Below, piece by piece: positions 9,137 through 23,638 of a stretch of DNA of 23,813 bases. Each line of letters starts with the position of its first letter. The stretch's first letter is position 1. The stretch is from a virus: positions 1 to 23,813 of IMG/VR virus record IMGVR_UViG_3300020183_002793; one strand, given 5' to 3'. Position numbers and translations under genes: made by a program. The notes beneath the pieces were generated by a model that saw only the letters and a list, made by a program, of their open reading frames with translations, was not told where the DNA came from and ran no database searches.

Positions 9137-10192
9137 TTAAGCCTTCTTGGAAATGCGTGACAGGGCCGCGACATACTGAGCCATCGGACCCGTAGGTGTC
9201 TTCTCATCTGTATTGTCGATAGGATCGACATCAAGAGATTCCGTGAGAACCGACTTTAGTGCAGCCTTGCGACCTGAGGGGAAATAGCTCTCGCGAAGAG
9301 ACTGCACCTTCTCGCCGAAAGATTCGGCATTATCAAAGGTGATGGTCTCTGTTAGCTTCACCAACTTTTCAACCTGCACATCTGTAAGACCGTCTGTAGC
9401 TTCAGCGACGACAATTTCGCGCACCAGAGCTTCATTCTCTGTGCGTAGTTCGACTGAAGCTTCGATCTCCTTATTAAGGGCCGCTGTCAGCTCCTCAACC
9501 TGAGAAGCGAGATTTTCTACGATGTCTTCTTTACCTTCTGGTACATCAATATAATGCTCGGTGAATAGGTTGCGAAGACCTGACATGAAGGATTCTACAA
9601 TTTCAGCACGGAGGCCTGTCTCAACAGCAAGCTTATTCTCTTCCATCCACTGCTCGACAACGTGGTCAAGATATGAATCGACTTGATCAATAAGCTCTGA
9701 AGTCTTTGACTCAACAGCTTCGCCGATCTCAATTTGCTGAATAGCAGCCATTTCTTCCAGCTTCTCATTAATTTTTGTCACAAGCGCGATTTGGAAAATA
9801 TCCGAAACTTTAGACTTGAAGTCTTCAGAAACTTCAGCACCTTCGAAGATTGCATGAATGTCATCAGAGACATCGACATCTTCTGATGTCACGCGAGGAG
9901 GCTGCACGATCTTTGAAGTACCCTGCATTTGGTATTCTTGTTCACCGTCAGGAAGACCCATGACCTTCGCATAAGTGGCTTTTAGCTCACCCTTTGTCAT
10001 TTTTGATACTGTATTCACGATGGCTGAAACCATCGATGAACGTGACGCAGGATTCACAGATGTCGGTGAAGTGCGGATGGTATCATGCTCGCCGTCCTTA
10101 TCGCCGCCAGGAGGTGTGACCTTGTCGCCGACTGGACCAGGAACATGTGCGCCTGGCGCATCCGCTTCGTCGATCTGCTTAACTTGGCTCAT
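9137..10192 (-). CDS. 22: gp22 prohead scaffold protein
   Basis: This 351-residue acidic, largely helical protein sits between the protease and major capsid genes, the position of the T4 gp22 scaffold (269 residues), which forms the prohead core and is later cut to peptides by gp21. Seen: an N-terminal Pro/Gly-rich segment (residues 11-40), a repeated-type peptide HDTIRTSPTSV followed by SRSSM, MTKGELKATYAKVMGLPDG, then long Glu/Lys-rich heptads with INEKLEEMAAIQQIEIG, TSELIDQVDSYLDHVVEQWMEEN and VENLASQVEELTAALN. IDxVxxYLDyVVeeWxxEN is typical of gp22 in marine T4-like phages by recall. GAGGAG lies before ATG 10192, and a perfect TATAAATA box lies 40 bases upstream. Confidence 0.9.
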   Translation of the reverse strand: MSQVKQIDEADAPGAHVPGPVGDKVTPPGGDKDGEHDTIRTSPTSVNPASRSSMVSAIVNTVSKMTKGELKATYAKVMGLPDGEQEYQMQGTSKIVQPPRVTSEDVDVSDDIHAIFEGAEVSEDFKSKVSDIFQIALVTKINEKLEEMAAIQQIEIGEAVESKTSELIDQVDSYLDHVVEQWMEENKLAVETGLRAEIVESFMSGLRNLFTEHYIDVPEGKEDIVENLASQVEELTAALNKEIEASVELRTENEALVREIVVAEATDGLTDVQVEKLVKLTETITFDNAESFGEKVQSLRESYFPSGRKAALKSVLTESLDVDPIDNTDEKTPTGPMAQYVAALSRISKKA

Positions 10193-10232
10193 TTTGGTAT
10201 CTCCTCAGGACCTTGATGGAATTGCCCGGTGA

Positions 10233-10240
10233 TATTTATA
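10233..10240 (-). promoter_or_regulatory. late promoter TATAAATA before gp22
   Basis: A perfect T4 late box on the minus strand (TATAAATATC), 40 bases before the gp22 start. It is preceded by an A/T-rich stretch and lies in the 59-base gap after gp21. Confidence 0.8.
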
Positions 10241-10251
10241 AAATTTGAATA

Positions 10252-10902
10252 TTACAGCTTGGAAACGAAGTCGCGAAATACACGCAAGACTTCTTCTTCC
10301 GTGCGGCGACTGCGTGCACCTTTATTAATATGCTTTCTATAGGATGCAACCTCAACTTCTTTCAGGACACCGTTGTCCCAAACCCATTCTTTACCTTCCA
10401 TAATGCCATGAACAAAAGCATCCGGAGCTGATGGGTCAGCAACGATATCACCTGCGGTAGCTAGGTGAAAGTCATCTTGCACTTCCATGCAACCATTGCG
10501 TTCTTTTAGAGAACCCATGCCTCTTGTAGAGACACCAAGACGAGCACCCTCATCCATCAAGTTTTTGACGATGTTACCGTAAGGTGTTTCCATGATCTTA
10601 GCACGACCGATGTAATTATTACCATCTGGACGTAGTTCTTTGATCATATGTGAAACCCGCTCTAGATTGATGGTTGGGCCCGATGGGTGACCAAGCTCAC
10701 CATAAGCGCGGTTTTGTTCAATATGCTCGCGAATGTAACGATTGACTTCACGTTCCATAATCTGCTTAGGATATAGGCGGCCGTTACGATTCTTCTGCTC
10801 AGCCTGCATAAAAACACCTTCAATGAAGTAGCTCTTACCACCGCGCTCATTAGCTTCTGTGATGATCTTGAGCTCCTCGTTGACTTCGCAGATGAGTTTC
10901 AT
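10252..10902 (-). CDS. 21: gp21 prohead core protease
   Basis: This 216-residue serine protease matures the head by cutting gp23, the scaffold and core proteins. Length is close to T4 gp21 (212). Seen: FMQAEQKNRNGRLYP (31-45), the catalytic His motif GELGHP (His72), the catalytic Ser in GVSTRGMGS (Ser125), and GDIVADPSAPDAFV (151-164), all strongly conserved in this family. The predicted substrate site LLGE-A in gp23 lies in the same cluster. An AAGGA ribosome-binding site overlaps the end of the preceding 127-residue gene, so it is probably read together with that gene from the late box at 12301-12308. Confidence 0.95.
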   Translation of the reverse strand: MKLICEVNEELKIITEANERGGKSYFIEGVFMQAEQKNRNGRLYPKQIMEREVNRYIREHIEQNRAYGELGHPSGPTINLERVSHMIKELRPDGNNYIGRAKIMETPYGNIVKNLMDEGARLGVSTRGMGSLKERNGCMEVQDDFHLATAGDIVADPSAPDAFVHGIMEGKEWVWDNGVLKEVEVASYRKHINKGARSRRTEEEVLRVFRDFVSKL

Positions 10903-10916
10903 CTCAGGTATCCTTA

Positions 10917-11300
10917 TTAGTAAGATGATCCGCCAGTGATGGCAGGACGCTTGTGTAGCTTGATTACCAGAGATGCGGGACCTGTACCTGCCCTAGTCAC
11001 AACAACATTAGCAGATGCTTCACCCCCTGTCTCAAGACCGATGCCCGCCGCCTGAAAATCAAATACGCCGGATAGGGCTAGATTAAGCACAGTATTGGCA
11101 CCACGCTTAATATTAAATGTCACACCGTTTGATGTTGACCATGAAACTACAGAGATAAACATCTCCTGAACTGTCTCACCGACTGAATTGGCTGCCACTA
11201 CTGCATTTGAGCTGTTTAGCTGAATTGCGCCGCCGGCAGCAAAGTTGCCAACAACATAACCACCCTTGATGCCTTTTGAAACTACGCGATCAATCGCCAT
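10917..11300 (-). CDS. unrecognised 127-residue beta-rich protein in head cluster
   Basis: I do not recognise the family. The protein is Gly/Ala/Val-rich with few charged residues and alternating hydrophobic strands: YVVGNFAAGGAIQLN, VQEMFISVVSWSTSNG, VTFNIKRGANTVLNLAL and a C-terminal ASLVIKLHKRPAITG. It has no signal peptide or membrane span. Its composition resembles a small structural beta-sandwich. It starts at ATG 11300, overlapping the stop of the upstream gene by one base (TAATG), and ends 15 bases before gp21. The position between core and protease genes suggests a head component, perhaps a decoration or core protein; this is inference from context. Confidence 0.8.
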   Translation of the reverse strand: MAIDRVVSKGIKGGYVVGNFAAGGAIQLNSSNAVVAANSVGETVQEMFISVVSWSTSNGVTFNIKRGANTVLNLALSGVFDFQAAGIGLETGGEASANVVVTRAGTGPASLVIKLHKRPAITGGSSY

Positions 11301-12085
11301 TAGTCAGTCTCCTCAACATCTGGATTCAATACAAAGTCAATAATATCACGAAGACCTTTAGCACTCATTGAACCAATCTCAATGAATTTTGCAGCATTCT
11401 CACCTTCTAGAAGAGAATAAACCTCAGCCAGTTTAGCCGCCAGATCATTATCGACATCTACATGACCATCTTCGAAAATAACTCGACCACCAATCTTAGA
11501 TTCAATAATACGACGAATGCCAAATTGCATTGATTCGCGGAATTGCTTGATTGATGTCTTAGATGTGCGAACCACATCCTTCTCACCACTCTTTTCCGCG
11601 GAGCTTGGTGCGGGATTGCTTTCAACAGCCTTAATCGAAACGCGAGGTGATTTTATAGAATATGGCTCCACCGCAGACGGTGATATGCGAACCACTGAAG
11701 TATCACCACCACGCTTATCCGCATAATTTGGCGGAGTTTGCTTTGTATATGAACCTAGATTATCCGCAGCAACCTTAGACATATCTTGCCGAATCGGAGT
11801 GCGCTCACCAATTTTTAATTCATCACCGGCACGGTGATTAATACGCTTTTTTGTATCAGCCTGATTGATATTCTTGTCTTGATCACCAAAGTCTGTTATA
11901 GTTGATGTATGCATTTTCTTGAATGCACGTTCACCAGCAGCTTTAGGCTCTAGCGACCGAGACTCATCATCATCGACAAATGTATCTGAGCGATATGTAC
12001 GCTTCTTAGCAGGCACGGTCGCAACGTAGGCGGCCTCGCGGAGGCGTCGAGCCGCCTCTTTAATATCAGCTAGCCTCTTAGGCAT
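11300..12085 (-). CDS. unrecognised prohead core-type protein in the gp68 position
   Basis: This 261-residue basic-then-acidic protein is of unknown family. It starts at ATG 12085, which has GGAGGA five bases upstream and overlaps the previous stop by eight bases; the frame stays open to ATG 12124 but without a ribosome-binding site. Seen: MPKRLADIKEAARRLREA helix at the N-terminus, a low-complexity polar middle, two copies of a short peptide, DTSVVRISPSAVEP (residues 128-141) and EKDVVRTSKTSI (168-179) followed by FRESM, and a helical C-terminus with LAAKLAEVYSLLEGENAAKF. The same peptide occurs once in gp22. In T4, gene 68 (a prohead core protein) follows gene 67 here, so a core role is plausible, but I see no direct gp68 similarity. 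Confidence 0.8.
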   Translation of the reverse strand: MPKRLADIKEAARRLREAAYVATVPAKKRTYRSDTFVDDDESRSLEPKAAGERAFKKMHTSTITDFGDQDKNINQADTKKRINHRAGDELKIGERTPIRQDMSKVAADNLGSYTKQTPPNYADKRGGDTSVVRISPSAVEPYSIKSPRVSIKAVESNPAPSSAEKSGEKDVVRTSKTSIKQFRESMQFGIRRIIESKIGGRVIFEDGHVDVDNDLAAKLAEVYSLLEGENAAKFIEIGSMSAKGLRDIIDFVLNPDVEETD

Positions 12086-12275
12086 CTTGCTCCTCCGACG
12101 GTTCCTGTTGCGTGGAATCGGCATTGAACATCTGAGATGCGATGTTTACCTTCTCGATGTCCATACGATCCACTAGCTTATCCATCAACGCAGCCTGAAT
12201 ATTTTGCGAAAATGCAAGTGGATTGCCGCTTATTAGACCACCAATAGCAGCTTCAATTCTTTCTGTGGGCGTCAT
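12078..12275 (-). CDS. 67: gp67-like prohead core protein
   Basis: This 65-residue protein (66 if the adjacent ATG at 12278 is used) lies where T4 has gene 67. By eye it aligns without gaps to the T4 gp67 helical region: AAIGGLISGNPLAFSQNI, then AALMDKLVDRMDIEKVNIASQMF, followed by an acidic Gln/Glu-rich tail as in gp67 (80 residues). T4 gp67 is an abundant prohead core protein cut by gp21. ATG 12275 has AGGAG seven bases upstream, while ATG 12278 is only four bases away. A perfect late box at 12301-12308 precedes it, making it the first gene of a 67-like, 68-position, 127-residue, gp21 transcript. The assignment rests on weak sequence similarity plus gene order. Confidence 0.7.
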   Translation of the reverse strand: MTPTERIEAAIGGLISGNPLAFSQNIQAALMDKLVDRMDIEKVNIASQMFNADSTQQEPSEEQDA

Positions 12276-12300
12276 CATTCATCTCCTTATTTAATATCCA

Positions 12301-12308
12301 TATTTATA
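12301..12308 (-). promoter_or_regulatory. late promoter TATAAATA before gp67-like gene
   Basis: A perfect late box on the minus strand (TATAAATATGG), 25 bases before the chosen gp67-like start and just after the stop of the collagen-like fibre gene. Confidence 0.8.
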
Positions 12309-12323
12309 ACTTTGTTAATTGCC

Positions 12324-13967
12324 TTATAAGAAATATGGAATCTTATATACAATACCTGATATGGTTATTCTCAAGTGTCCAGCAGGATTAGCGACTATTG
12401 CGGAGTTTAATGTCAGATCAGCTTGACGAGTCGATATAGACGCTGTATTAGATGCAGATACCGTCAATGAACTAAAAGCATTGGATACCTGCAATCTTGT
12501 AGCAATAGCTAGATTTGTATTGGCTAATGCTGCTCTTTCAATAGATTTTGTTTGATATATGCTGGCAGCATTAGCTACTTGTAATCTATCAGAAATCAAA
12601 ATACGAAGAGCAGTATTTGTTGATGTCAGATTATTTTTGACATTAATAATTGCTAGATTTGTATTGGCTAATGCTGCTCTTTCAATAGATTTAGTCTGAA
12701 ATGTTGTCGTAAGAAATGAATTTGAAACCAAATTCTCAACCTGACCGGCTTTAGTGATGACTTTAAGCTGGCCAGTGGTGCTTGATTTTAGTGTCGTATT
12801 ACCAAGAAATATTGTGCTACCGCTAAGATAAAGATTTGCAAACCTGCGCTCGGATGATCCTATATTAAAGGTATTATTTGATGCAGGTATAATCGTTTTA
12901 GTTTGTAGGGTTGTTGATATATTATTACCAATTGCTGCGCTCTGTATTTGTATGACAGTAGAATTACCAGATGCAGTTACTGTCGCGCCAACAAAATCAA
13001 TCTGAGTAACATTATTACCTATTACAGTGCCTTCTTCTTTGATGGTGATAGATCCACCACCACCACCACCACCACCACCAGCAGCTGTATTAGCTTGCCA
13101 CTTACCTAATGTAGAGTTCCATATCAAAGACTGCCCATTTGTTGGTGATAGTGTAGAATTATAATCAACATCATCAAGACGTCGAAGCAATACTTCACCT
13201 GAGCCCGTGCCACCACCACTTGTTACCGCAGCTGTGGTTGCTAGCCTGCTAATCTGTGTAGCAACTCTTTGTTCTAGGGTGCTAAACTTTTTTTCTACTA
13301 TTGTAAGATCGATTGGTGGACCCTGTGGGCCCACTTCACCTTGTAAACCTTGTGGCCCCATTGGACCAGAATCGCCTCTATCACCTTTATCACCTTTTGG
13401 TCCTATTAGACCTCTAGGTCCCTGCTCACCTTGTAAACCTTGTTCACCCCGCCCACCCTGTGGTCCTTGAGGACCCTCAGGCCCCTGTTCACCTTGTGGA
13501 CCTCGGTCTCCTCTTTCACCTTGTAGACCTACAAAACCTCTTTCTCCTTGAGGCCCTTGAGGGCCCTCAGGTCCAGCTGGTCCAATATCACCTTTAGGTC
13601 CTCTATCACCTTTATGGCCAGGCTCACCTCTAGGACCCTGATCACCTTTTGGTCCTAAATCACCACGGTCACCCTTTTCGCCCTTGAATCCTCTCTCGCC
13701 TCGAGAACCTTTCTCACCTGGTGCGCCATCTTTACCAGGATTACCTTTATCACCAATATCCCCCTTTTCTCCCCTAGAACCTGGGTGACCTTGAGGACCA
13801 GCGGGGCCCTGATGACCGGGAGGGCCAGGTGGACCACCGGGAGGACCCGGCGGACCTTGAGGTCCTTCCTTGATCTCATTGATAATCTCAGCTTTTATCT
13901 TAGTGGCTTCAGTTTGAGCTATTTTGACAGCAGCAGCTAAGACTTTGGCTGATTGAAGAACATCCAT
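12324..13967 (-). CDS. collagen-repeat fibre protein (head/neck or tail fibre)
   Basis: This 547-residue structural protein has three parts. Residues 1-32 form a helical start (VLAAAVKIAQTEATKIKAEI). Residues about 33-216 are nearly continuous Gly-x-y triplets with frequent GPQGPQ, GDKGDRG and GEKG units, a collagen triple-helix domain with one break near GPPGGPP. The rest has a helical stem (LEQRVATQISRLATTAAV), a run of nine Gly, a beta segment NIGSSERRFANLYLSGSTIFLGN typical of phage fibres, and two copies of QTKSIERAALANTNLAI. The C-terminus ends GIVYKIPYFL. It would form trimeric fibres. It starts nine bases after the portal gene stop and lies among head genes, so an attachment to head or neck is possible. 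No chaperone or peptidase S74 domain is seen. Confidence 0.9.
   Translation of the reverse strand: MDVLQSAKVLAAAVKIAQTEATKIKAEIINEIKEGPQGPPGPPGGPPGPPGHQGPAGPQGHPGSRGEKGDIGDKGNPGKDGAPGEKGSRGERGFKGEKGDRGDLGPKGDQGPRGEPGHKGDRGPKGDIGPAGPEGPQGPQGERGFVGLQGERGDRGPQGEQGPEGPQGPQGGRGEQGLQGEQGPRGLIGPKGDKGDRGDSGPMGPQGLQGEVGPQGPPIDLTIVEKKFSTLEQRVATQISRLATTAAVTSGGGTGSGEVLLRRLDDVDYNSTLSPTNGQSLIWNSTLGKWQANTAAGGGGGGGGGSITIKEEGTVIGNNVTQIDFVGATVTASGNSTVIQIQSAAIGNNISTTLQTKTIIPASNNTFNIGSSERRFANLYLSGSTIFLGNTTLKSSTTGQLKVITKAGQVENLVSNSFLTTTFQTKSIERAALANTNLAIINVKNNLTSTNTALRILISDRLQVANAASIYQTKSIERAALANTNLAIATRLQVSNAFSSLTVSASNTASISTRQADLTLNSAIVANPAGHLRITISGIVYKIPYFL
12508..12548 (-). repeat. 41-base direct repeat, copy 2 (in fibre gene)
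   Basis: A 41-base stretch identical to 12652-12692, offset by exactly 144 bases (48 codons), so both copies are read in the same frame. It encodes SIERAALANTNLAI-type sequence in the distal part of the fibre protein and likely arose by duplication. Confidence 0.9.
12652..12692 (-). repeat. 41-base direct repeat, copy 1 (in fibre gene)
   Basis: Identical to 12508-12548. The flanking bases differ on both sides, so the perfect match is limited to 41 bases. Recombination between copies would delete 48 codons in frame. Confidence 0.9.
13054..13080 (-). repeat. trinucleotide repeat, nine TGG units (poly-Gly linker)
   Basis: Nine CCA units on the plus strand (TGG on the coding strand) encode nine consecutive Gly between the helical stem and the beta-rich distal part of the fibre. 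Slippage would change the linker length without breaking the frame. Confidence 0.9.
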
Positions 13968-13975
13968 CCTATCTT

Positions 13976-15637
13976 TTACCCCTTGAGGTCTTCGATCAGT
14001 ATGGTATCTTCCAGGACCCTAGTCATCCTTTCAATCAGCTTTTTATCTTCCTCTGTCAGAGGTTTTACTTGTTCCTCCACTTGAGGTTTATCTTGATCAG
14101 ATTCTTCATCTTCAATCTCAGGCTGATTCTTAGCATCAGTTATTTTCTTATCCATATCATCTGCATCTATCTCAGCAATTTCAGATTCCATTTCTTCGAT
14201 ATCATCATCTGACATACGAAGCACATTCTTCTGAATCCACTTTTTAGTAAAATATTTACCTGTATATTGATCGACTTGACCAAGCAATGAAAGACGAGAT
14301 GTCATAATTTCTTGGTCTTTAAGCTCAGAAAAATAATTATCTTTCTGGAAGTCATATTTAATATATGACCTCATTTCATGCCATTCTTCCCGTGACATGA
14401 CACCAGTTAGTGCTAGCTGAATCTCAAGTAGATGATCAAATAGCAATGTAAATCTATGACGAAGACGTGCCACAAACTTATTGAACTTAATCTCATCACG
14501 AGTTATCTCACTGGATCTACCTAAGCTAAATTGTCCTTCAGGCTCAAGACGGCTAATAGGTACACTCAATGCTTGATATAATTTCTTTTTGAAATATTCA
14601 ACATCAGCCATCTCACCTAAGTTTTGACCACCTGGTAGTGTTGTGATTTCAGTGCCACGCGCACCCTCGCGCCGAGGTAACCAGAAATCTTCAAGCATTG
14701 TCATGAATTTGCGGTCATCGCGCACTTCGCCGGTTGAAGCATCATATACAAGACGGTTTTTATGACGTATCATCATATCGCGTAAATATTGCTCAGCCTT
14801 AGGCTTCGGTAAATTACCTACGTCGATGTAGAATATACGGCGTTCAGGAGCACGGCTTAGTCGATAGATAACAACGGCATCTTCTAACATGCGTACTTGA
14901 TTAAGGGGCTTGATCGCCTTATGCAGGTATGAAAGCACCATACGATTGCGATTATCAAGCAATCCACAATTAACATAGCATACGGAATCAGGTGAAATCT
15001 TGGTGCCCTGCGAATATGCCGAACCTGCCAATCCTGATGGATTATACAGATAATATTCAGAATATGCAGGCACCATAGGATTATTGTTTTTGGGCGCATC
15101 AGAATTAATTTTCTTCTGCGGGATGCGAACCTTACGAATACGTCGAGGATCAATATAACGTAGCTCTTTGATACCAGCTCGAGGATTTTTTACATCGATC
15201 ATGATATGATAATAGAGTCTACCATCAACATACCAGCGACGGAAAATCTCATAGCAGATATTAGAAAAATCTAAGAGCTCAAGAATATTATCAAATTCTT
15301 GCTCAATCCGCTTTTTGACTTTATCTGGTTGCTTTAGGTTATCCATGTCAATACGTATTATGCTAGCATCACCGTCAGAGACCAAAGCTTCATTTACAAT
15401 GTCATCAATAGCAGCTTCAACCTCAGCATTCATCGACATCTCACGATATCGAGTGATTAGCTCAGCTTCACTCTTGGCTGTACCTTCAAGATCAACGAAC
15501 GTGCCATAGGCACCACCAGGTGCTATCTCTACTGCGCCGTCATCTTTCTGCTCTGGTACGAAAGACGGTATTTCTACTGCCTTTCTGGCCGCGTCTTCCG
15601 CCTTACCGATGCGAAAGCCAAATAATTCTATGGCCAT
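13976..15637 (-). CDS. 20: gp20 portal protein
   Basis: This 553-residue protein (T4 gp20 is 524) forms the dodecameric portal at the head vertex through which gp17 packages DNA. Seen: ELITRYREMSMNAEVEAAIDDIVNEA, conserved near the N-terminus of gp20; RRWYVDGRLYYHIMID; GIKELRYIDPRRIRKVR; MVLSYLHKAIKPLNQVRMLEDA; VIYRLSRAPERRIFYIDVGNLP; QYLRDMM; LEDFWLPRREG; and GRSSEITRDEIKFNKFV, all typical of T4-like portals. A Glu/Asp/Lys-rich tail (about 480-553) ends the protein. ATG 15637 has GAGG at 15645-15648. A terminator whose hairpin contains a late box lies just upstream, separating it from gp19. It is followed after eight bases by the fibre gene. Confidence 0.97.
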   Translation of the reverse strand: MAIELFGFRIGKAEDAARKAVEIPSFVPEQKDDGAVEIAPGGAYGTFVDLEGTAKSEAELITRYREMSMNAEVEAAIDDIVNEALVSDGDASIIRIDMDNLKQPDKVKKRIEQEFDNILELLDFSNICYEIFRRWYVDGRLYYHIMIDVKNPRAGIKELRYIDPRRIRKVRIPQKKINSDAPKNNNPMVPAYSEYYLYNPSGLAGSAYSQGTKISPDSVCYVNCGLLDNRNRMVLSYLHKAIKPLNQVRMLEDAVVIYRLSRAPERRIFYIDVGNLPKPKAEQYLRDMMIRHKNRLVYDASTGEVRDDRKFMTMLEDFWLPRREGARGTEITTLPGGQNLGEMADVEYFKKKLYQALSVPISRLEPEGQFSLGRSSEITRDEIKFNKFVARLRHRFTLLFDHLLEIQLALTGVMSREEWHEMRSYIKYDFQKDNYFSELKDQEIMTSRLSLLGQVDQYTGKYFTKKWIQKNVLRMSDDDIEEMESEIAEIDADDMDKKITDAKNQPEIEDEESDQDKPQVEEQVKPLTEEDKKLIERMTRVLEDTILIEDLKG

Positions 15638-15648
15638 AGGTTTTCCTC

Positions 15649-15680
15649 AAAAAAAAGGTCCGCTATATTTAGCGGACCTT
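15649..15680 (-). terminator. intrinsic terminator after gp19, with late box inside
   Basis: On the minus strand AAGGTCCGCT (15671-15680) pairs perfectly with AGCGGACCTT (15655-15664) around a six-base loop, and a run of eight Us (15649-15656) follows. It begins 26 bases after the gp19 stop and should end the neck-tail-terminase transcript. Confidence 0.92.
15666..15673 (-). promoter_or_regulatory. late promoter box (GCTAAATA) before gp20, inside terminator hairpin
   Basis: The minus strand reads GCTAAATATAG across the stem edge and loop of the gp19 terminator, 28 bases upstream of the gp20 ATG. The TAAATA core and spacing match other late boxes here, so the same element can end one transcript and start the next. 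Confidence 0.55.
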
Positions 15681-15706
15681 TGGTAGTTTATACTTGGGCG
15701 TTATTC

Positions 15707-16264
15707 TCAGACCGTTAACTCGCCCGTAATACCTGGAGTCACGAGATCCCAATAGTCATAAGCAAATTCGACTGGGAATGTCTCGATCTGATCGCCGTTT
15801 GCCCAAGCAAGATCGATAGCACCAATCTCGGTTGGGAAAATATTGACGAAACGATATGTACGAATCGCTTCGCCTGTTTTTGCATACTGTGTCACCGTAG
15901 CAGTGGTCCGATAAGATGCAGAAGTAGCAAGCTGTGGAGCACGAAGATTCGCTTGATGACGATTGATTTCATTGCTCCACACTTCCATCGCATGGCGCAC
16001 CTGGAAATCTTCGTCGTTGAGAACGTCGACTCTCCAGTTAGCAAATGTACGAGTGCCAGCAATTTTAATGCGGCGACCGTAGTATGACTGCTCGATTACG
16101 CCAATTGAACTACCAGGAATCTGAGATGCCTGACCAGTGAATGAGATGCGAGCACCAATATTGGGCACGCCTGACGGCGTGTCGACAATGACGCTAAAGA
16201 GCGACGGCCGCGCACCACCAAATGGAAGGCCTGCGGACGAAAACTCTGATACATTAAAAGCCAT
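15707..16264 (-). CDS. 19: gp19 tail tube protein
   Basis: This 185-residue protein (T4 gp19 is 163) forms the hexameric rings of the inner tail tube. Seen: LFSVIVDTP, FTGQASQIPGSSIGVIEQSYYGRRIKIAGTRTF with the conserved GxxIkvaGdRTF-type strand, WRVDVLNDEDFQVRHAMEVWSNEIN, a middle strand ending VTQYAKTG, then YRFVNIFPTEIGAIDLAW and a C-terminal ETFPVEFAYDYWDL. These match gp19 (FtfqCkatalP, DxxWtVtvmND, lWPtnvgeleLdW, fevtlayDYWe) by recall. An AAGGAG ribosome-binding site precedes ATG 16264. It follows gp18 closely and ends before a strong terminator, as expected for an abundant virion protein. Confidence 0.95.
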   Translation of the reverse strand: MAFNVSEFSSAGLPFGGARPSLFSVIVDTPSGVPNIGARISFTGQASQIPGSSIGVIEQSYYGRRIKIAGTRTFANWRVDVLNDEDFQVRHAMEVWSNEINRHQANLRAPQLATSASYRTTATVTQYAKTGEAIRTYRFVNIFPTEIGAIDLAWANGDQIETFPVEFAYDYWDLVTPGITGELTV

Positions 16265-16286
16265 ATCTGTATCTCCTTACCGCGCC

Positions 16287-18218
16287 TTAAGCCCGACCGA
16301 CGATTTCAGAGAACTCGACGCCGGTGCGGACGGCGACGAAGTTCAATTGGATAAAGTTGATAGCCCGCGCCGGCTTGACATAGATATCACCGATAAACTC
16401 GTTACGATCAATCACCTCTGGTGTATTATTGGTTTCATCGCAGACCACGCGGAAGTCATAAATGCCGCGGCGACCTTGCACATCACGCAGGAACGGCTCG
16501 ACAAGATTGCGGAACTGTGCGCGTGTAAACTCATCATTAAATTCAAACAAGGTAAACTTCGCAGCAGTCGCGATGGCCTTCTCAAGGACAATGAATAGGC
16601 GGCGTACGTTGATGCGGTCAAAAGCTGATGGTTTTGCAAGCAGCGTCTTATCACCGAACAATACAGTACCTTGACCTGGGAATGTTGACACCGGATTAAT
16701 ACCGCTCTTATAGAGCTGATCGCGCTGGGCTTTGGTTGGATTAAACGAAAGCTTGATCACATTCTTAACCTGGCCGCGATTGAATCCAGCGGGTGAGAAC
16801 CAAGGATCGCGCTCATTGTCTGTGCGAACCATGAGACCAGCTGTGTCACCATTTAACGGAATGTAGCGATACAAGTCATTGTATTTGTCATATATGTATT
16901 TGTAACCACTATCCATTACCGCATAAGATGATGACGGTAGCAGATCGCGGAATGTGATGGAGTCATCAGATTCCTTACCCACATAGCTTGAATTATTCAC
17001 AGCATCTGAGCGACGCGGAGAGATTATCGCGATACAATCTTTGCGAACTTCAGCAATATTATTGATGACGTGAATCGCTTTAGTTTGATTACCATCACCT
17101 GTGAGAATCAGCGAGACATCAACCTCTTCAGGATTAGCAAACTTATTATATCCGACGATATAGTCAGCTTGGCGAGGTAATGCGCCATCGCGACCAAGTG
17201 TTAGCGATGCATTGATAGGACGCGCCTGGCTGCCACCACCAAAATTGGTGCCCAAAGCTGTCTTACCGGCATTTGCGATGGATGAGCTATGAGCAGTCCA
17301 CCAAAGCCACTGAGACCGCTCATTAATCACATTCTTGTAGAAATTAGTTGCACCGTCAGCTGTTAGCGCATCTGAGGCCTTGGATAACGCGGGGTAGCGT
17401 TCAATGACTGTATTAGCACGACCGTAAATCGCACCATCTTCATCAGCCATAATGAAATGAATCTCATCGCTTGATCCGCCCTGGCGGGAGACAAACTCTG
17501 ATGTGCCTGGGGCAGCATCGAAGAAGTTATAAAACTCCCAGCGACGCGACACAGATGACTGTGATGCCACTGTATTGCCGACGTATTTTGACCTTAATGT
17601 CAAACTCGTATTATTGGATACGGTGGCAACTTGCACTTCTGTCCTGTCAGGACCAGCAAGCAAGAGGTCGCCGACACGAATCTGCGTATTAAAAGCAGAA
17701 CCTGAGCCTGTGACAGTAGTGCTGTTGTTTGTAAATGCCAGAGTGCCAGTCAAAGTGCTTTGCCAGGCATTAGCTGTTGGGCAGATTGACCAGCGAATAC
17801 TATTACCAAGAGCACCTGGGTACTTTGCGACAAATTCACCAACACCAGTGATACCTGATGAAAAATTTAGCTCATAGTCATCATCGCTCTTGATAACCGT
17901 ATTGGTCGTATTGGCCGCATTTGACGTCGCATTACGACCGTTGCTGGTAGAGCCCGCCTCATTGATGACGCGAACGACATACAGCTTATTGCCATAACCG
18001 AGAAAGCTGGCTGCTGTGAAGAAGTCAGCCGCTGTGTTAGAATCCGGCTTACCGAACTGCACAGCAAGCGTATCCTCGTTATCAACAAGCACACGTTTCT
18101 GTACTGGGCCCCAACGAAAAGCGCCTGCAATGGCGCCTTCCGTGGTGCTGACGGCAGGAACGATCGTTGAGAGATCAATCTCACTCACGTTTACGCCGGG
18201 GGAAATCTGAAATGGCAT
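16287..18218 (-). CDS. 18: gp18 contractile tail sheath protein
   Basis: This 643-residue protein (T4 gp18 is 659) makes the contractile sheath. Seen: the conserved N-terminus QISPGVNVSEIDLSTIVPAVSTTEGAIAG split over residues 4-32, RWGPVQKRVLVDNE, FGKPDSNTAADFFTAASFLGYGNKLYVVRV, VSLILTGDG, and the conserved C-terminal block NPVSTFPGQGTVLFGDKTLL, RINVRRLFIVLEKAI, FTRAQFRNLVEPFLRDVQGRRGIYDFRVVCDETNN, and VKPARAINFIQLNFVAVRTG. ATG 18218 was chosen because AGGAGG (18227-18232) is eight bases upstream; ATG 18224 is only two bases from it. A perfect TATAAATA box lies 41 bases upstream. Confidence 0.97.
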   Translation of the reverse strand: MPFQISPGVNVSEIDLSTIVPAVSTTEGAIAGAFRWGPVQKRVLVDNEDTLAVQFGKPDSNTAADFFTAASFLGYGNKLYVVRVINEAGSTSNGRNATSNAANTTNTVIKSDDDYELNFSSGITGVGEFVAKYPGALGNSIRWSICPTANAWQSTLTGTLAFTNNSTTVTGSGSAFNTQIRVGDLLLAGPDRTEVQVATVSNNTSLTLRSKYVGNTVASQSSVSRRWEFYNFFDAAPGTSEFVSRQGGSSDEIHFIMADEDGAIYGRANTVIERYPALSKASDALTADGATNFYKNVINERSQWLWWTAHSSSIANAGKTALGTNFGGGSQARPINASLTLGRDGALPRQADYIVGYNKFANPEEVDVSLILTGDGNQTKAIHVINNIAEVRKDCIAIISPRRSDAVNNSSYVGKESDDSITFRDLLPSSSYAVMDSGYKYIYDKYNDLYRYIPLNGDTAGLMVRTDNERDPWFSPAGFNRGQVKNVIKLSFNPTKAQRDQLYKSGINPVSTFPGQGTVLFGDKTLLAKPSAFDRINVRRLFIVLEKAIATAAKFTLFEFNDEFTRAQFRNLVEPFLRDVQGRRGIYDFRVVCDETNNTPEVIDRNEFIGDIYVKPARAINFIQLNFVAVRTGVEFSEIVGRA

Positions 18219-18259
18219 GAACATTTCCTCCTAGGTATCTGATGCTAGTCTATCGTCGA

Positions 18260-18267
18260 TATTTATA
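18260..18267 (-). promoter_or_regulatory. late promoter TATAAATA before gp18
   Basis: A perfect late box on the minus strand (TATAAATATCG), 41 bases before the chosen sheath start, in the gap after the terminase gene. It is nearly identical in context to the gp22 box. Confidence 0.8.
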
Positions 18268-18276
18268 AAATAGCCA

Positions 18277-19908
18277 TCAGACTCTTATCCAACGATCCAT
18301 CGAATCATCTTCACTGAATGAATTACCTCCATCCAGTGACATAGGATCTTCTCCCATACCATCATCATAAAATCCTGCTGGGAGAAGATCCTCGTCCATC
18401 TCTCTCAGCTTTTCATCAGCAATCCTTTGACGTATATCTATATCGGTAAGTTCTTTAAAATATAACTGCTTGGTCAACCATCCAAATAAAACTAAAGTCA
18501 TTACAAGATCATCATTATAACCTTCTTCAGCCTCAAAAGAGCTGCCTTTTGATACAAAGTTTGATAGCTCCTCAATGACATCAAAGTCCTCGACTATAAG
18601 CTTATCACCCTCAATTAACTCTTTCAGATTAGCACAACCAACGGCCTTGACAAATCTAGATGTTGTCACCCCAAGCTGGGATCTACCAGAAAAACCTGTG
18701 CTAAGTTGTTGCCCAGCGCGGCCCATCTGAGTAGTCGATAATACATTTTCACATTCTAGGTCTCGTTGCAATACCTCCGCAACCGTCTTACCTATATCAT
18801 TTGTTTCGACTAGAATATAAGAATTATTATATGCTTTTGCATATCTAGCTATGATTTCAGGGTAAAAAGACGGAACTACATTATTGCTTCGGTATTTTGC
18901 AACCATCTTATATGGTACTTTAGATACATCAAATATTATAAATGCAGAATAATCTAAACCAACTCCATGACTAGTATCAACCACGGTAACATAGGTATGC
19001 TTATATTCAGGGTTTTCATAGATATCAACACCCCAGCCATCGCGAGACACACTGCGAAAGGGCATAGACCTTAGCTTGACACCTGATATTAGTGTAAGAG
19101 TACTACCAAGAAATTCAGTTTCAAATTCTTGTTTGAACTGCTCTTCACTGGTATTTCGAATTGTCTGTTCACGCCATTTATCATCGCGCCCAGGTGTATC
19201 ACGCCAATGAACTTCAATAGACACATATTCGCTGCGCTTTTCAGCAGCATCAATCCACATCTTATAATAATGATTTAGACCATTTGGTGTTGATACAACG
19301 ATAATCTTAGAAGTCTTACCGGAGCTAATAGTAGGATAAACGGATGCAAAAAACTCATCTGCTATATTTCTGGGTACAAATGCAAATTCATCAAGGAAAA
19401 TTGTATTAAAGCTACCACCACGGATCGCACTTGCTGAGGTCGCAGATGCAAGTATCTTTGAACCATTTTCAAGCTCAATATTACCTTTGTTCCAAACAAC
19501 AATACCTTGCTGAATCCACTTTGGTAGATGCTCATATGCTAGCTGAATTTTACCAAGCATATCACGGGATAAACTACCTTTGTTAGCTAGAATGGCAATG
19601 CTTTGATTGTCTTGAAATAGAACAGTCCATAAAAGATAACCTGTAACCACAGTAGATTTACCAGATTGACGTGGCATCTTACAGATAGTAAATCGATTAT
19701 CTTTAAATGTATTTACCATCTTACGTTGATATTTGTACATATTAAAATTTACTAGACCTTTATCTACATTCACAATCTTCATATAACTTGAAATAAAGTA
19801 TTCTGGATCTTTAGCACATTTGTGATATTCGCGAACTTGCTCTTCGGTATAGTTTACTTTAACACCAGCTTTCTTCAGATTAGGATTGCCTAGATAGTTT
19901 TCAGACAT
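18277..19908 (-). CDS. 17: gp17 terminase large subunit
   Basis: This 543-residue packaging motor (T4 gp17 is 610) combines an ATPase that translocates DNA through the gp20 portal with a headful nuclease. Seen: FTICKMPRQSGKSTV with Walker A at residues 78-85 (Arg80, Lys84), Walker B TIFLDEFAF (Asp173, Glu174), the coupling motif VSTPNG (206-210), then the nuclease domain with the RNase H-like acidic residues Asp311 (VVDTSHGVGLDYSAF), Glu371 (YILVETNDIG) and Asp469/Asp470 (GYNDDLVMT), corresponding to T4 D401, E458 and D542. An acidic C-terminal tail ends the protein. The start overlaps the end of gp16 by eight bases. No intron or intein is visible. Confidence 0.97.
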   Translation of the reverse strand: MSENYLGNPNLKKAGVKVNYTEEQVREYHKCAKDPEYFISSYMKIVNVDKGLVNFNMYKYQRKMVNTFKDNRFTICKMPRQSGKSTVVTGYLLWTVLFQDNQSIAILANKGSLSRDMLGKIQLAYEHLPKWIQQGIVVWNKGNIELENGSKILASATSASAIRGGSFNTIFLDEFAFVPRNIADEFFASVYPTISSGKTSKIIVVSTPNGLNHYYKMWIDAAEKRSEYVSIEVHWRDTPGRDDKWREQTIRNTSEEQFKQEFETEFLGSTLTLISGVKLRSMPFRSVSRDGWGVDIYENPEYKHTYVTVVDTSHGVGLDYSAFIIFDVSKVPYKMVAKYRSNNVVPSFYPEIIARYAKAYNNSYILVETNDIGKTVAEVLQRDLECENVLSTTQMGRAGQQLSTGFSGRSQLGVTTSRFVKAVGCANLKELIEGDKLIVEDFDVIEELSNFVSKGSSFEAEEGYNDDLVMTLVLFGWLTKQLYFKELTDIDIRQRIADEKLREMDEDLLPAGFYDDGMGEDPMSLDGGNSFSEDDSMDRWIRV

Positions 19909-20332
19909 CAGTCATCTCACCATCAATTATATCATCATTTTTGCGACCGTTTATAATTGCTTGAAGTTCAGCTGTGCTACCTATGAATACAGCATTATTG
20001 ACTACAGTGCTGGATGAAGCAGTTTCACCACGTATATCTTTTACTCGCTTCTGTAGGTCGATAAGGTCTTTGCTAACATCGGATATTGTTTTGATAAGCT
20101 GACCAACAACTTCATAAGCTCTGGGAGAATCTGTGCTCTGTGCCAAAAGCAAAAGACCTTCTAATGCATCCTTACCTTTACCAATCACATCTTTTAGATT
20201 TTTGCGAGCCTCATCATAATCAACATCTAGAGGATCGCCAACTTTCTCCTCGATGATTGTTGGTAAGCTTTCTTTCTTCTCTGGTTCTGGTAGTCCTAAA
20301 GTATCTCGTAGACCATCATGTAAACTGCTCAT
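19901..20332 (-). CDS. 16: gp16 terminase small subunit
   Basis: This 143-residue protein (T4 gp16 is 164) regulates gp17 and helps start packaging. Seen: an N-terminal LHDGLRDTLGLP, YDEARKNLKDVIGKGKDALEGLLLLAQSTDSPRAYEV and VGQLIKTISDVSKDLIDLQKRVKDI, which form the central coiled-coil helices typical of small terminases of T4-like phages, then a variable end. The order 15-16-17 and the overlaps with gp17 (eight bases) and close spacing after gp15 support it. Confidence 0.92.
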   Translation of the reverse strand: MSSLHDGLRDTLGLPEPEKKESLPTIIEEKVGDPLDVDYDEARKNLKDVIGKGKDALEGLLLLAQSTDSPRAYEVVGQLIKTISDVSKDLIDLQKRVKDIRGETASSSTVVNNAVFIGSTAELQAIINGRKNDDIIDGEMTDV

Positions 20333-20333
20333 A

Positions 20334-21251
20334 TTACGTATCCTGCCCTGTTATCGGATCGTATTTGCGGCCATCTGCATGGAAAAATGTATTAGGTGCA
20401 TATTTCCAAGCTGAATTTGCTTGAATTAGATTTAGACTAATTGATGCTGCACTATTAGCTGTACCAACACCATTAGCATGTAATCCTGGCTGCACTTGAA
20501 CCCTAGAATTCCATAATGATTTCTTGATTTCTTCATCCGTGATATCAATAGTGATGCCATATAGGGTATTAGCTTTAGCACGTGTATCAAGCGAATGCAA
20601 ATTGATTTTGGTGCGCTTAATGATACCACCGGCAGAATTATTACGCACAGGACCAAAGAACCAACCCTTCATTGTGAAATTATAAGTGTATATTAGCGCC
20701 CTGCGATTTTCATAGTCACCTTCATAGGTATCATCTATTGATAAACCATTCAATATTGTCGGCACATCCATTGTAATCCCCATCTCTGGGATCAAGTTTA
20801 AAGAATTTGTCCACTCAGGACCAAAATAAGGTAAAATCTGCTCCATTATCTGAACACCATCATCTGCATTTCTGACATATGAGTGAAGGGCAAATGATAT
20901 ATTCCAAGGAACTGGTGTTCTTTGATATTTGAATAGGTTTGTATCTGTGTTGGATATTGCAACATTGCGCGTGATAGATGAAAGCCGCCTAGAACCATCA
21001 TATTCAAATCCAGTAATCTCAAATGCAAGGCGAGGTAGAATAGTCTGTACTTGAGCTGTTAGATCAGGATTATTGCGGACCCTAGCAAGCCATTTTTCTT
21101 TCGGGCTATATGATATGGGCACAGCAATTGTCTGCAATGACTTACCAGCTGCATCAATTCTCTCGACGGTCAAATCATTGAACATATTACCAAACGCGAT
21201 CACATATTTGCGTAGTGTCTGGTGGTAAAAAGTCGATCCAAATATTGGCAT
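20334..21251 (-). CDS. 15: gp15 tail sheath stabiliser / tail terminator
   Basis: This 305-residue protein (T4 gp15 is 272) caps the sheath and tube and joins the tail to the neck. Seen: FYHQTLRKYVIAFGNMFNDLTVERID near the N-terminus, then VPISYSPKEKWLARVRNNPDL, LPRLAFEITGFEYDGSRRL, PVPWNISFALHSYVRNADDGVQIMEQILPYFGPEWT and YTYNFTMKGWFFGPV, all strongly conserved in gp15. The C-terminal 70 residues are variable. It starts at ATG 21251 just after gp14 and ends one base before the gp16 start (TAATATG). Confidence 0.96.
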   Translation of the reverse strand: MPIFGSTFYHQTLRKYVIAFGNMFNDLTVERIDAAGKSLQTIAVPISYSPKEKWLARVRNNPDLTAQVQTILPRLAFEITGFEYDGSRRLSSITRNVAISNTDTNLFKYQRTPVPWNISFALHSYVRNADDGVQIMEQILPYFGPEWTNSLNLIPEMGITMDVPTILNGLSIDDTYEGDYENRRALIYTYNFTMKGWFFGPVRNNSAGGIIKRTKINLHSLDTRAKANTLYGITIDITDEEIKKSLWNSRVQVQPGLHANGVGTANSAASISLNLIQANSAWKYAPNTFFHADGRKYDPITGQDT

Positions 21252-21254
21252 GGC

Positions 21255-22097
21255 TTAATACCTATCTATTTCGCTAAATGGATTTCTCTCGCTGAAATTC
21301 ACATCAATAAATGATCTCTGAGTAAACAGCTCATTGTTAGCAGTAGATGCAACGGTTTCGATGCGATATTCTTGAATCAAATAGCTACCTTCTTCTTGCA
21401 CCAATAGATCGGAGTTTTCCATAAGGTAACCCTGCTGTTGCAGATCACGAGATAGTCTAGTCTCAATAATATCAATATCATTATTACCAGTATCAAGGCG
21501 ATCTGAGCTATAGCGAAATAGCTCGCATGTCATCTCATAGGTATAAAGCTTACCATGTTGATAGAATATGCGTTCATGTTCCACAAACTTGATTTCATAT
21601 ATCGCACCATTACCATTATTGATAAATGGAATGTATATCAAATCACCTTCAAGTGGTCTTGATGATGATATTGAATAACCGTTTGCAGATCCAACTTCTA
21701 GCAGATAATTATCGGTATTTGATGAATATGAATCTGAATTAGTTTCGACCAAGTATATATTACCAACTTCATCAGATAGCTTCTCGGTGCGTATCTGATC
21801 CCAGCGGCGGCGTGCCATGGTCAATGTGATCTGATCGCGTATTTCCAGATTGAACTTGCTTAGAAAGTCACCTTCACCCTGAAAGTTTTCCAGATTGTTG
21901 ACATATACTTCAATTGGTACAGCCAAATTAAACTGTGAGAGAGGATCTTCACCAAATTCCTCAATCTCATTGAAAATAGTACGAGGCATATACTGAACAT
22001 CAACGCCATAAATCTTGATGACTTCAACAATCAGATCATCCTCGACCCTTTGTTCACGGCCGTAGCTATAATTTTGAAAATATTTGTTAACCGACAT
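21255..22097 (-). CDS. 14: gp14 neck protein
   Basis: This 280-residue protein (T4 gp14 is 256) forms part of the neck that seals the filled head and binds the tail. Seen: an N-terminal VNKYFQNYSYGREQRVEDDLIVEVIKIYGVDVQYMPR, where the YGxeQxLxeDLvxExIkiyG.dv.YiPR pattern is typical of gp14; DPLSQFNLAVPIEVYVNN; FQGEGDFLSKFNLEIRDQITLTMARRRW; PLEGDLIYIPF; FEIKFVEH-like IKFVEHERIFYQHG; and TYEMTCELFRYSSDRLDTG. It starts one base after the gp13 stop and ends three bases before gp15, so it is translated within a tight operon. Confidence 0.95.
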   Translation of the reverse strand: MSVNKYFQNYSYGREQRVEDDLIVEVIKIYGVDVQYMPRTIFNEIEEFGEDPLSQFNLAVPIEVYVNNLENFQGEGDFLSKFNLEIRDQITLTMARRRWDQIRTEKLSDEVGNIYLVETNSDSYSSNTDNYLLEVGSANGYSISSSRPLEGDLIYIPFINNGNGAIYEIKFVEHERIFYQHGKLYTYEMTCELFRYSSDRLDTGNNDIDIIETRLSRDLQQQGYLMENSDLLVQEEGSYLIQEYRIETVASTANNELFTQRSFIDVNFSERNPFSEIDRY

Positions 22098-22098
22098 A

Positions 22099-22842
22099 TC
22101 AATTCTGCATGTCCATAACTGGTAAGCTATAGCCGCTATTCATTTCTCTCTCAAGGATATTGATCTCATCATTTGCTTCATCCCAAATCTTCTGACCATT
22201 AAACTTAACACCGCCGGGCAAATTCATACCTTCAAACTTCTTGAGGTTTTCACCCCACTGCTTTTTGATAAGAGAAGTCGCATATTTCTTTAGCCAAGGA
22301 TCTGACCACACATCACTGTATGTCTCTGAATCCAAAGTGCGGTAGCAATCTATGATCACAAAATCATCGACCTTTACATCTTTATCCCATTTCATATCAA
22401 CATAGAGTCGATTATTATGTCGATTAAAACGAATTGGTTTGCTACCAACAAAAATCTGCTCTAGCTCTTCAATATGACGCATACCCATAACATATGGCAC
22501 ATAGGTAGTGCTTGTGAAATCAAAGAGATCATTTAGATGGATCTGATAGCGAATATTGAATAGATTTGATACGCTGGTTGCACGACCGATATCAAAAATG
22601 CGAATGACATAATTGATATCATCCGGCAAAGTTATGAACTTGTCATCCACATCAGACTGTGTGATTTTATATGACAGATATACATGCTCGGTGCCGTCAA
22701 AATGAAAATCGCGATAATATGCGAGAGCATCATCGATGCGATCATCAAGCTGACCATCATCGACATTGATATCAATTACAGGATAACCGAGCCGACGAAG
22801 GCAATAATCCTTAAATAGCTTGCGCGTCGTGGGTACAGCCAT
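22099..22842 (-). CDS. 13: gp13 neck protein
   Basis: This 247-residue protein (T4 gp13 is 309) is the head-completion neck protein that binds the portal and gp14. Seen: LFKDYCLRRLGYPVIDINVDDGQLDDRIDDALAYYRDFHFDGTEHVYL, with the YClRrLGyPvi.INV.ddQ.dDrid.AL.yy.dyh.dg pattern typical of gp13; PDDINYVIRIFDIG; YVPYVMGMRHIEELEQIF; RFNRHNNRLYVDMKW; and a C-terminal WLKKYATSLIKKQWGENLKKFEGMNLPGGVKFNG. GGAGG lies just upstream of ATG 22842, and a late-type box is 25 bases before the start. Confidence 0.95.
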   Translation of the reverse strand: MAVPTTRKLFKDYCLRRLGYPVIDINVDDGQLDDRIDDALAYYRDFHFDGTEHVYLSYKITQSDVDDKFITLPDDINYVIRIFDIGRATSVSNLFNIRYQIHLNDLFDFTSTTYVPYVMGMRHIEELEQIFVGSKPIRFNRHNNRLYVDMKWDKDVKVDDFVIIDCYRTLDSETYSDVWSDPWLKKYATSLIKKQWGENLKKFEGMNLPGGVKFNGQKIWDEANDEINILEREMNSGYSLPVMDMQN

Positions 22843-22867
22843 AATTACCTCCGAGACTGAGCCAGAC

Positions 22868-22875
22868 TATTTAGG
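22868..22875 (-). promoter_or_regulatory. late promoter box (CCTAAATA) before gp13
   Basis: The minus strand reads CCTAAATAGTC, almost the same as the box before the gp3-position gene. It lies in the gap between the holin gene and gp13, 25 bases before the start codon. Confidence 0.55.
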
Positions 22876-22877
22876 AC

Positions 22878-23393
22878 TTACTTCTTTCCAGCCGCAGCGG
22901 CTTCATCTTTTGCGCGAGATCCAGCCGAAGAACCAAAATAGAAAGATACGATAGCACCCCAAGCAGTACCTAATGTACCTAGCATCACAAGCATGGCCTC
23001 ACCACCACCGGCGGCAGGCAATCCAAACATGAGCATGTACATCAGCACACCGAAAAACCCAATTGTGATGACTGCTGCTAGAGCTCGAGGTGTCCAATCT
23101 CTTGTACTCATGGCCATCTGACGGGCGCTGCCGCGGTCACCTGCGCTGATACGCTCCAGGTCAACATCGAGCTTTTTCATCTCGAGCTTGAACTGATTTT
23201 CAGCATTCTTGAGGGCTAGGAGCTGCTCCGGTCTCGCATTCGCGGCGGCCGCCGCCAGCTCTTCTTCGCTGCCGTCAGGCTTACCCAGGAGAGCCTCAGA
23301 TAAGGTGCGTACAGCCATACCAGCAAGCGGCCCACCCATCGCCGTAGCAATAGATGGTGCAACTGTTCTTACTATATTAAGAAGCTGATCCAT
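22878..23393 (-). CDS. GTA-type 3TM holin-like membrane protein
   Basis: This 171-residue protein resembles the three-helix holin family first described for gene-transfer-agent release (GTA_holin_3TM). Seen: a hydrophobic N-terminal helix IVRTVAPSIATAMGGPLAGMAVRTL (about 7-30), a charged coiled middle with LAAAAANARPEQLLALKNAENQFKLEMKKL, then DRGSARQMAMSTRDWTPRALA, a membrane helix AVITIGFFGVLMYMLMFGLP, a second AMLVMLGTLGTAWGAIVSFYFG, and GSSAGSRAKDEAAAAGKK. The DR.SAR..., D.WTPR.LA and YYFGSS.GS..K patterns are family features by recall. Holins open the inner membrane at lysis; no endolysin is seen in this window. It follows the 62-residue membrane protein after four bases. A membrane role is firm and holin function is inferred. 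Confidence 0.8.
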   Translation of the reverse strand: MDQLLNIVRTVAPSIATAMGGPLAGMAVRTLSEALLGKPDGSEEELAAAAANARPEQLLALKNAENQFKLEMKKLDVDLERISAGDRGSARQMAMSTRDWTPRALAAVITIGFFGVLMYMLMFGLPAAGGGEAMLVMLGTLGTAWGAIVSFYFGSSAGSRAKDEAAAAGKK

Positions 23394-23397
23394 TGAA

Positions 23398-23586
23398 TCA
23401 CTTCCTTATAAAGTTAGCAGATATCATTCCTACAAAACAACCGACTACGGTATGAAATGCAGGACCAATGATTTCAAATATTTTATCATTAAAAAAGCTA
23501 TTTGCTTCTTTTGCTAATAATAGTTCAAAAATGGAAGACTCTGGTGTAGAGGCAGCCATGGTATTGCCTTTGTTTTCTTCACTCAT
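23398..23586 (-). CDS. small single-span membrane protein next to holin
   Basis: This 62-residue protein has a polar N-terminal half and a single hydrophobic C-terminal segment, IIGPAFHTVVGCFVGMISANFI (about 39-60), ending in Arg-Lys. I do not recognise the family. A GGGGGA ribosome-binding site sits eight bases before ATG 23586, and a late-type box lies 52 bases upstream. Its spacing of four bases from the holin-like gene suggests a shared transcript and possibly a lysis-related or antiholin role, which is inference. Confidence 0.7.
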   Translation of the reverse strand: MSEENKGNTMAASTPESSIFELLLAKEANSFFNDKIFEIIGPAFHTVVGCFVGMISANFIRK

Positions 23587-23638
23587 TTTTGTATCCCCCA
23601 GCTATGCTGTCATTTTATGGTATAACTGTGTCACCGCC

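Follow-up and report, generated by a model that had tools for sequence, protein, structure and literature searches.

In T4-like phages, PeSLs (promoter(early)-stem-loop elements) have promoters of the early type and are associated with the shuffling of genes in variable regions. As far as the passages we draw on describe them, they are composites of a promoter and a terminator stem-loop placed between genes. Another arrangement is that of T4 gene e and I-TevI, where, according to passages of PMC3014915 and PMC2988022, RNA from a late promoter lacks the 5' portion of a hairpin that hides the ribosome-binding site (RBS) and so escapes its inhibition; similar layouts of late promoter and hairpin are described there for I-TevII, I-TevIII, segB, and mobE of Aeh1. 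As to the late promoters themselves, passages of PMC1524935 place the T4 late box at -13 to -6 and give the Aeh1 late motif as CTAAATA, with C at -12, and a passage of PMC2984593 gives the late motif of S-PM2 as NATAAATA.

Here, we focus on the junction between the tail tube gene gp19 and the portal gene gp20 in a 23,813-nt stretch of viral DNA (positions 1 to 23,813 of IMG/VR virus record IMGVR_UViG_3300020183_002793), referred to as the window. The junction holds a terminator-like hairpin with a late-type promoter box at the edge of its 5' arm and in its loop, and, judging from the sequence, we consider it quite probable that this is a nested signal that would end one transcript and restart transcription for the next. 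As in gene e and I-TevI, as far as those passages present them, the late RNA of the window would lack the 5' strand of the hairpin, given the geometry and T4 spacing; unlike in these systems, a T-run follows the hairpin, which does not cover the RBS and has the appearance of an intrinsic terminator. The element resembles PeSLs in combining a promoter with a terminator stem-loop between genes but differs from them in that its box is a late one, lies in the loop, and is placed between the core genes gp19 and gp20 rather than in a variable (hyperplastic) region; no minus-strand σ70-like site was listed at 15638-15720. Its box is of the types of Aeh1 and cyanophage late promoters, although hairpin nesting is not described for those in the passages covered (PMC1524935 and PMC2984593). 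In the search listings and article passages covered, with the PeSL papers represented by citing text and reference titles, no late promoter within the loop of a terminator is described. The element thus appears to extend the known T4-type composite signals by joining a terminator-like hairpin, a free RBS, and a late box in the loop.

Late genes and late promoter boxes in the window

PHROG matches identify T4-type virion genes on the minus strand of the window, for which we use the T4 gene numbers that they presumably correspond to by gene order. These are gp13 (head-tail adaptor, 22842-22099), gp14 (head closure), gp15 (sheath stabilizer), gp17 (large terminase), gp18 (sheath, 18224-16287), gp19 (the upstream cistron of the junction, an ORF at 16264-15707; phrog_45, E=1e-47), gp20 (the downstream cistron, 15637-13976, with its ATG at 15637; phrog_213, E=1.6e-205), gp21 (protease), gp22 (scaffold), gp23 (major head protein), and a second tail-tube-family gene at the gp3 position. 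A helicase (UvsW position), an SbcD-like subunit (gp47 position), and, on the minus strand, the late sigma transcription factor gp55 (4545-5111; phrog_234, E=3.8e-57) were also matched. Downstream, gp20 is adjoined by a collagen-like/tail-fiber gene (12324-13967), where T4 has gp67. The ORFs at 11300-12124 and 12078-12278 have no PHROG match, and the latter has TATAAATA and another TAAATA just before its start. Residues about 154 to 228 of gp18 match tail-fiber PHROG families, which suggests a shared inserted domain.

The hexamer TAAATA is not overrepresented in the window overall (15 found versus 20.6 expected). Nine of its 12 minus-strand copies are intergenic and lie 9 to 52 nt before an ORF start, as compared to 0 of the 3 plus-strand copies, and intergenic DNA makes up 878 of the 23,813 bases. 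The copy only 9 nt from its ORF start (12288-12293) is doubtful as a promoter. The nine intergenic boxes read TATAAATA (three times), CCTAAATA (twice), AATAAATA, ATTAAATA, TCTAAATA, and, between gp19 and gp20, GCTAAATA. The last differs at two positions from the T4 consensus, TATAAATA, and its C at -12 recurs in three other intergenic boxes. Two features of a T4-type late promoter system are found, a TATAAATA-like box at a suitable distance before a late gene and an encoded late sigma factor. Given the intergenic placement of the boxes, the C at -12 as in Aeh1, and the presence of gp55 in the window, GCTAAATA (minus strand, 15673-15666, with TAAATA at 15671-15666) can credibly be taken for a late box; its predicted +1, at 15660, is a G within the 3' arm of the hairpin.

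Other late boxes of the window are arranged differently. The gp18 box (TATAAATA, minus strand, 18260-18267) is not in a terminator. It sits within a bulged dyad, GTCTGATGG...CATCAGAC/T, which spans about 18242-18287 in the window (-12.4 kcal/mol) and is also present in loci L002 and L107, with folding energies from -10.7 to -12.4 kcal/mol and no T-tract. Before the gp3-position gene, a terminator-like hairpin recognized by eye (about 7644-7675) precedes the box (CCTAAATA, minus strand, 7633-7640) as a separate structure, so that the same phage also has an un-nested layout. In a fold-based test, none of the gp22, gp23, gp3, and gp13 boxes of the window was listed inside a hairpin.

Anatomy of the gp19-gp20 junction

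The gap between gp19 and gp20 is 69 bases long and contains, on the minus strand, AAAGGTCCGCTA-AATA-TAGCGGACCTTT-TTTTT-GAGG. A pairing scan and RNA folding place here a perfect 12-bp terminator-like hairpin with six G-C pairs (15681-15654), composed of a 5' arm (15681-15670), a 4-nt loop AATA (15669-15666), and a 3' arm (15665-15654). A run of eight T's (15649-15656) follows, five of them beyond the stem (15653-15649), and hairpin and T-run together form one 33-base element. The initial annotation had described a perfect 10-bp terminator after gp19: the perfect hairpin holds, while its length has to be corrected, as the 10 bp are a core that two A-T pairs extend to 12. The hairpin RNA has a minimum free energy of -19.1 kcal/mol (z -5.1), with none of 200 shuffles equally stable, and none of the other minus-strand terminator-like sites listed for 10000-23813 has as many pairs or as many G-C pairs. 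On both strands together, the terminator-like scan found 19 sites versus 9.9 (standard deviation, 3.0) in shuffles. A GC-containing stem followed by a U-run, as found here, has the form of an intrinsic terminator.

The box was said to span the edge of the stem and the loop, 28 bases before gp20, and both points are borne out: GCTA of GCTAAATA lies in the 5' arm, AATA is the loop, and the distance from the end of the box, recomputed to the ATG at 15637, is 28 bases. The probable RBS of gp20, GAGG (15645-15648), lies beyond the hairpin and stays single-stranded when the read-through RNA is folded. If the box occupies -13 to -6 as in T4, the late leader is predicted to be 23 nt long (15638-15660), with +1 at about 15660 (G), and to lack the 5' arm altogether and the 3' arm except for its 7 distal bases; for a 33-nt segment from 15662 onward, the predicted fold is weak (-3.7 kcal/mol; z +0.24). 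A further sequence considered as the real gp20 promoter, TATAAACT (15684-15691), was rejected: it is absent from the closest relatives of the window listed, and its RNA would hold the whole hairpin.

The box is kept within changing stems

No near-identical match to the gp19-gp20 region was found in phage records, and the comparison was therefore carried out through proteins and IMG/VR loci. In tblastn, 2504 phage records contained gp20 relatives, all below 60% identity. IMG/VR loci came from searches with gp20 of the window, gp19 of the window, and gp20 of four relatives (best 80 per search), and the regions of 16 named phage records were added for the main analysis, with 5 more later. The resulting 341 sequences, which include the window and of which many overlap, yielded 333 with a gp20 start and enough upstream DNA and finally 152 distinct 90-nt upstreams. 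As these sequences are related, the changes among them are not independent events.

The initial annotation had proposed that one element may both end the tail transcript and start the head transcript, and a check set beforehand was whether the box is kept while the stem changes. This is the case in 56 of the 152 distinct gp20 upstreams, which are nested by a stem-scoring rule that misses bulged stems (L251 and the AT-rich group L032, L055, and L203), and the comparison thus lends support to a dual role of the element. The remaining upstreams have a separate terminator followed by the box (45, among them L059, where the rule scores a hairpin within the coding region), a box only (31), or no box (20). 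A looser fold threshold gave 66 of 152 upstreams and 29 of 64 gp20 clusters (85% identity) as nested, although this count takes in weak folds (AS-zj, -10.0; L189, -9.6; S-P4, -9.0) and one wrong box (L113). In the gp20 cluster of the window itself, all 13 distinct upstreams are nested. The stem of the window, GGTCCGC-TAAATATA-GCGGACC, compares with GGGCCCGTCGT-TATAAAT-ACGACGGGCCC in L026, GGGATTGCCTA-AATAA-TAGGCAATCCC in L061, GAGGTCGATA-AATA-TATCGACCTC in L225, and AAAAGGGGTTGCC-ATAAATATA-GGTAGCCCCTTTT in L255, examples taken from a scan that misses bulged stems. The 22-base palindrome of the window family is present in 32 IMG/VR stretches, with one copy in each, and many of these stretches are already among the fetched contigs. 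Overall, single linkage joins the 31 distinct 8-nt arm cores into 5 groups, by a rule too lenient for purine-rich arms; loops reach 12 nt (L037 and L113), and stem mismatches occur.

The reverse situation, a stem kept with its box lost, would speak against a dual role. One clear case exists in the wider clade of the window, L118, a sister of the nested L259, in which the stem is kept and TAAATA has become TATATA; otherwise, the box is kept in many changed stems. Beyond this case, DLP6 has a stem with CTACATA and no TAAATA, TAAATA is missing from the hairpins of PVA8 and C48C1, the terminator that precedes gp20 in L153 and L155 is accompanied by no box within the scored region, and many cyanophage-like loci have terminator and box side by side. 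Given the 31 upstreams that have a box without a scored hairpin and the 20 without a box, nesting is, on the sequences compared, one frequent solution among several and not a rule. On a gp20 tree of 90 rows, nested versus other states require at least 9 changes, against a mean of 26.4 and a minimum of 22 in 100 shuffles; the tree is a quick IQ-TREE run (LG+G4) with long-branch warnings, and the change count cannot separate gain from loss.

The hairpin could instead be a 3'-end stabilizer or processing signal of the gp19 RNA rather than a terminator, with the promoter part unchanged. Nested hairpins without a T-tract are consistent with such a function, both those seen by eye in MD-2021a, Acj9, AB1I1M-1, and AbTZA1 and those found by the stem rule in L061, L159, L341, and L244. 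However, a T-tract follows 51 of the 56 nested hairpins, that of the window included, as compared to 5 without, one of which is that of MD-2021a, and we regard this explanation as unlikely.

Nesting occurs mainly at the gp20 junction

In the fold-based test, TAAATA within 75 nt of gp20 was nested in 59 of 134 distinct contexts, 39 of them with a T-tract. The rest of the coding strand gave 34 of 1152, 2 of them with a T-tract, and the other strand 16 of 415, none with a T-tract. Given a nested share of about 2 to 6% for the other A4T2 hexamers elsewhere, TAAATA away from gp20 is at background level; AAATAT, AATATA, and ATAAAT also score near gp20, as shifted readings of the same box.

Since much of this "elsewhere" is coding DNA, a comparison per gene is fairer. 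In this comparison, which omits loci L347 and above, 57 of 151 distinct gp20 upstreams are nested and 46 have a terminator and then a box. None is nested among the upstreams of gp18 (0/114; 112 with a plain box), gp19 (0/143; 97 with a plain box), gp22 (0/11; 8 with a plain box), gp23 (0/42; 27 with a plain box), or gp3 (0/30; 11 with a terminator and then a box), and those of gp14 to gp17 and gp21 mostly have no box, with none nested. A second junction is that before gp13, where 4 of 33 distinct upstreams are nested (S-PM2, L162, L231, and L329); the element of S-PM2, AAATCCCTATCTGATAAATACAGGTAGGGATTTTTAG (L281:11043-11075), scores a T-run.

These counts bear on the possibility that the hairpin is an ordinary terminator with a chance box in its loop, gp20 being expressed by read-through or from another promoter. 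The two deviations of GCTAAATA from the T4 consensus and the lack of TAAATA overrepresentation in the window would fit a chance occurrence. We nevertheless hold it to be very unlikely, as the box is kept in over a third of the upstreams (56/152) with many different stems and is nested with a T-tract in 39 of 134 contexts near gp20 versus 2 of 1152 elsewhere.

Predicted starts lie beyond the 5' arm and the loop

For a test independent of nesting, we took the best T-tract hairpin in the last 110 nt of each of the 152 upstreams and ignored the box in this choice. A hairpin and a box were found in 98 upstreams, a hairpin without a box in 2, and no T-tract hairpin in 52. The distance between hairpin center and box center has two peaks, with the box within 5 nt in 51 upstreams and 20 to 60 nt downstream in 47; in none of the 98 does it lie between these peaks or upstream of the hairpin. 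Assuming T4 spacing, the predicted +1 is in the 3' arm in 51 of the 98 and beyond the hairpin in 47; none of the 98 starts is predicted in the 5' arm, in the loop, or upstream of the hairpin. An RNA started from the box would therefore not contain the terminator in either layout. A purine (G or A) is predicted at +1 in 44 of the 56 nested upstreams; that all 56 of these have no 5'-arm base after +1 is a consequence of the selection rule and not evidence.

Starts beyond the 5' arm would also be expected under control of the gene e/I-TevI type, in which the hairpin would hide the gp20 RBS in RNA started upstream and late starts would free it. The principle is documented in T4 in passages of PMC3014915 and PMC2988022, and the predicted outer stem extends as far as the RBS region in Acinetobacter phages MD-2021a and AbTZA1. 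In the window, however, the hairpin does not include GAGG, which the predicted fold leaves unpaired, and such control is highly improbable there.

Stem changes point to an RNA hairpin

In the wider clade of the window, 11 distinct stems have CCGC (10/11) or CCTC at the top beside TAAATA, and their outer pairs change on both sides. Of the 121 cells of these stems, 117 are paired, as compared to 39 to 54 when one arm is slid by 1 to 3 positions; the stems stem from 25 hand-picked loci, with the register chosen for best pairing. Stem changes are thus compensated. Among the stem-core mismatches of 50 distinct nested hairpins, read on the coding strand, 29 are G.T and 2 are A.C, and 34 other hairpins upstream of boxes, for which no T-tract was required, show 26 G.T and 0 A.C, in a test that scored all non-Watson-Crick cells alike. 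Since RNA accepts G.T as a pair but not A.C, selection appears to act on the coding-strand RNA. Both the wobble bias and the compensating stem changes are what an intrinsic terminator would show.

It had also been suggested that the palindrome could form a cruciform that affects opening of the promoter, a proposal that the wobble bias on the coding strand does not support. That the palindrome acts as DNA, as a cruciform or a dimeric protein site helping to open the late promoter, is favored by the perfect dyad in the window and the weaker bulged dyad round the gp18 box of the window, L002, and L107, but is extremely improbable, as a cruciform, which involves both DNA strands, would be expected to show no preference between G.T and A.C (29 versus 2), the stem sequence is not kept as a protein site would require, loops of up to 12 nt and mismatches occur, and 112 of 114 gp18 upstreams have a box of which none is nested.

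A proposed terminate-and-restart mechanism

Under the terminate-and-restart explanation that we favor, a polymerase coming from gp18-gp19 would transcribe the whole palindrome, and its RNA, predicted to fold into a GC-rich hairpin followed by a U-run, would cause it to stop. RNA polymerase with the late sigma factor, presumably gp55, would recognize GCTAAATA at the edge of the 5' arm and in the loop and start about six bases downstream, inside the 3' arm, if the T4 spacing applies. The late gp20 RNA would have no 5' arm and would therefore form no terminator, leaving a short open leader and a free RBS. The outcome would be a compact boundary between the tail-tube and portal messages. In the virion, the copy number of the tail tube is high and that of the portal is low, and the element may serve to uncouple the high-copy tail-tube gene from the low-copy portal gene.

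Termination and reinitiation might even be coupled in place, such that a polymerase at the U-run, about 10 to 15 bases from the promoter start, restarts with gp55 and the clamp on the same DNA. We consider this improbable; if it were so, the element would pass polymerases from the tail to the head operon with the message reset, and the repeated placing of the start in the 3' arm across lineages would reflect selection for such a hand-over.

If correct, the terminate-and-restart explanation describes a very compact operon end and start, in which the terminator is harmless to the downstream gene and which recurs with changed stems mainly at the tail tube-portal junction of T4-like phages. It would suggest that neighboring genes with different needs can be uncoupled within about 33 bp, and it predicts exact RNA ends. 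It also calls for caution with annotation tools that separate promoters from terminators and offers a ready design for an insulated promoter.

Variant layouts before gp20

Several relatives show other arrangements of box and hairpin before gp20. T4 has a box and no enclosing hairpin. In Acinetobacter phages Acj9, AB1I1M-1, AbTZA1, and MD-2021a, CCGATTG-type hairpins surround TATAAATA without a T-run, as seen by eye; the function of such strong box hairpins, found in the Acinetobacter phage loci L293, L342, L343, and L344, may differ. An AT-rich dyad around the box, AGTATTG...CAATACT, also without a T-run, is found in L032, L055, L059, and L203. In RB16 (L292; box only by the stem rule) and IME13 (L346), the box lies just before a hairpin recognized by eye, and a T4-spaced start in the 5' arm would weaken the hairpin of the late RNA. 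Finally, L034, L035, L041, and their relatives have a gp19-gp20 gap of about 490 bp that opens with a start codon, apparently an inserted gene, and here the nested element stays directly before gp20.
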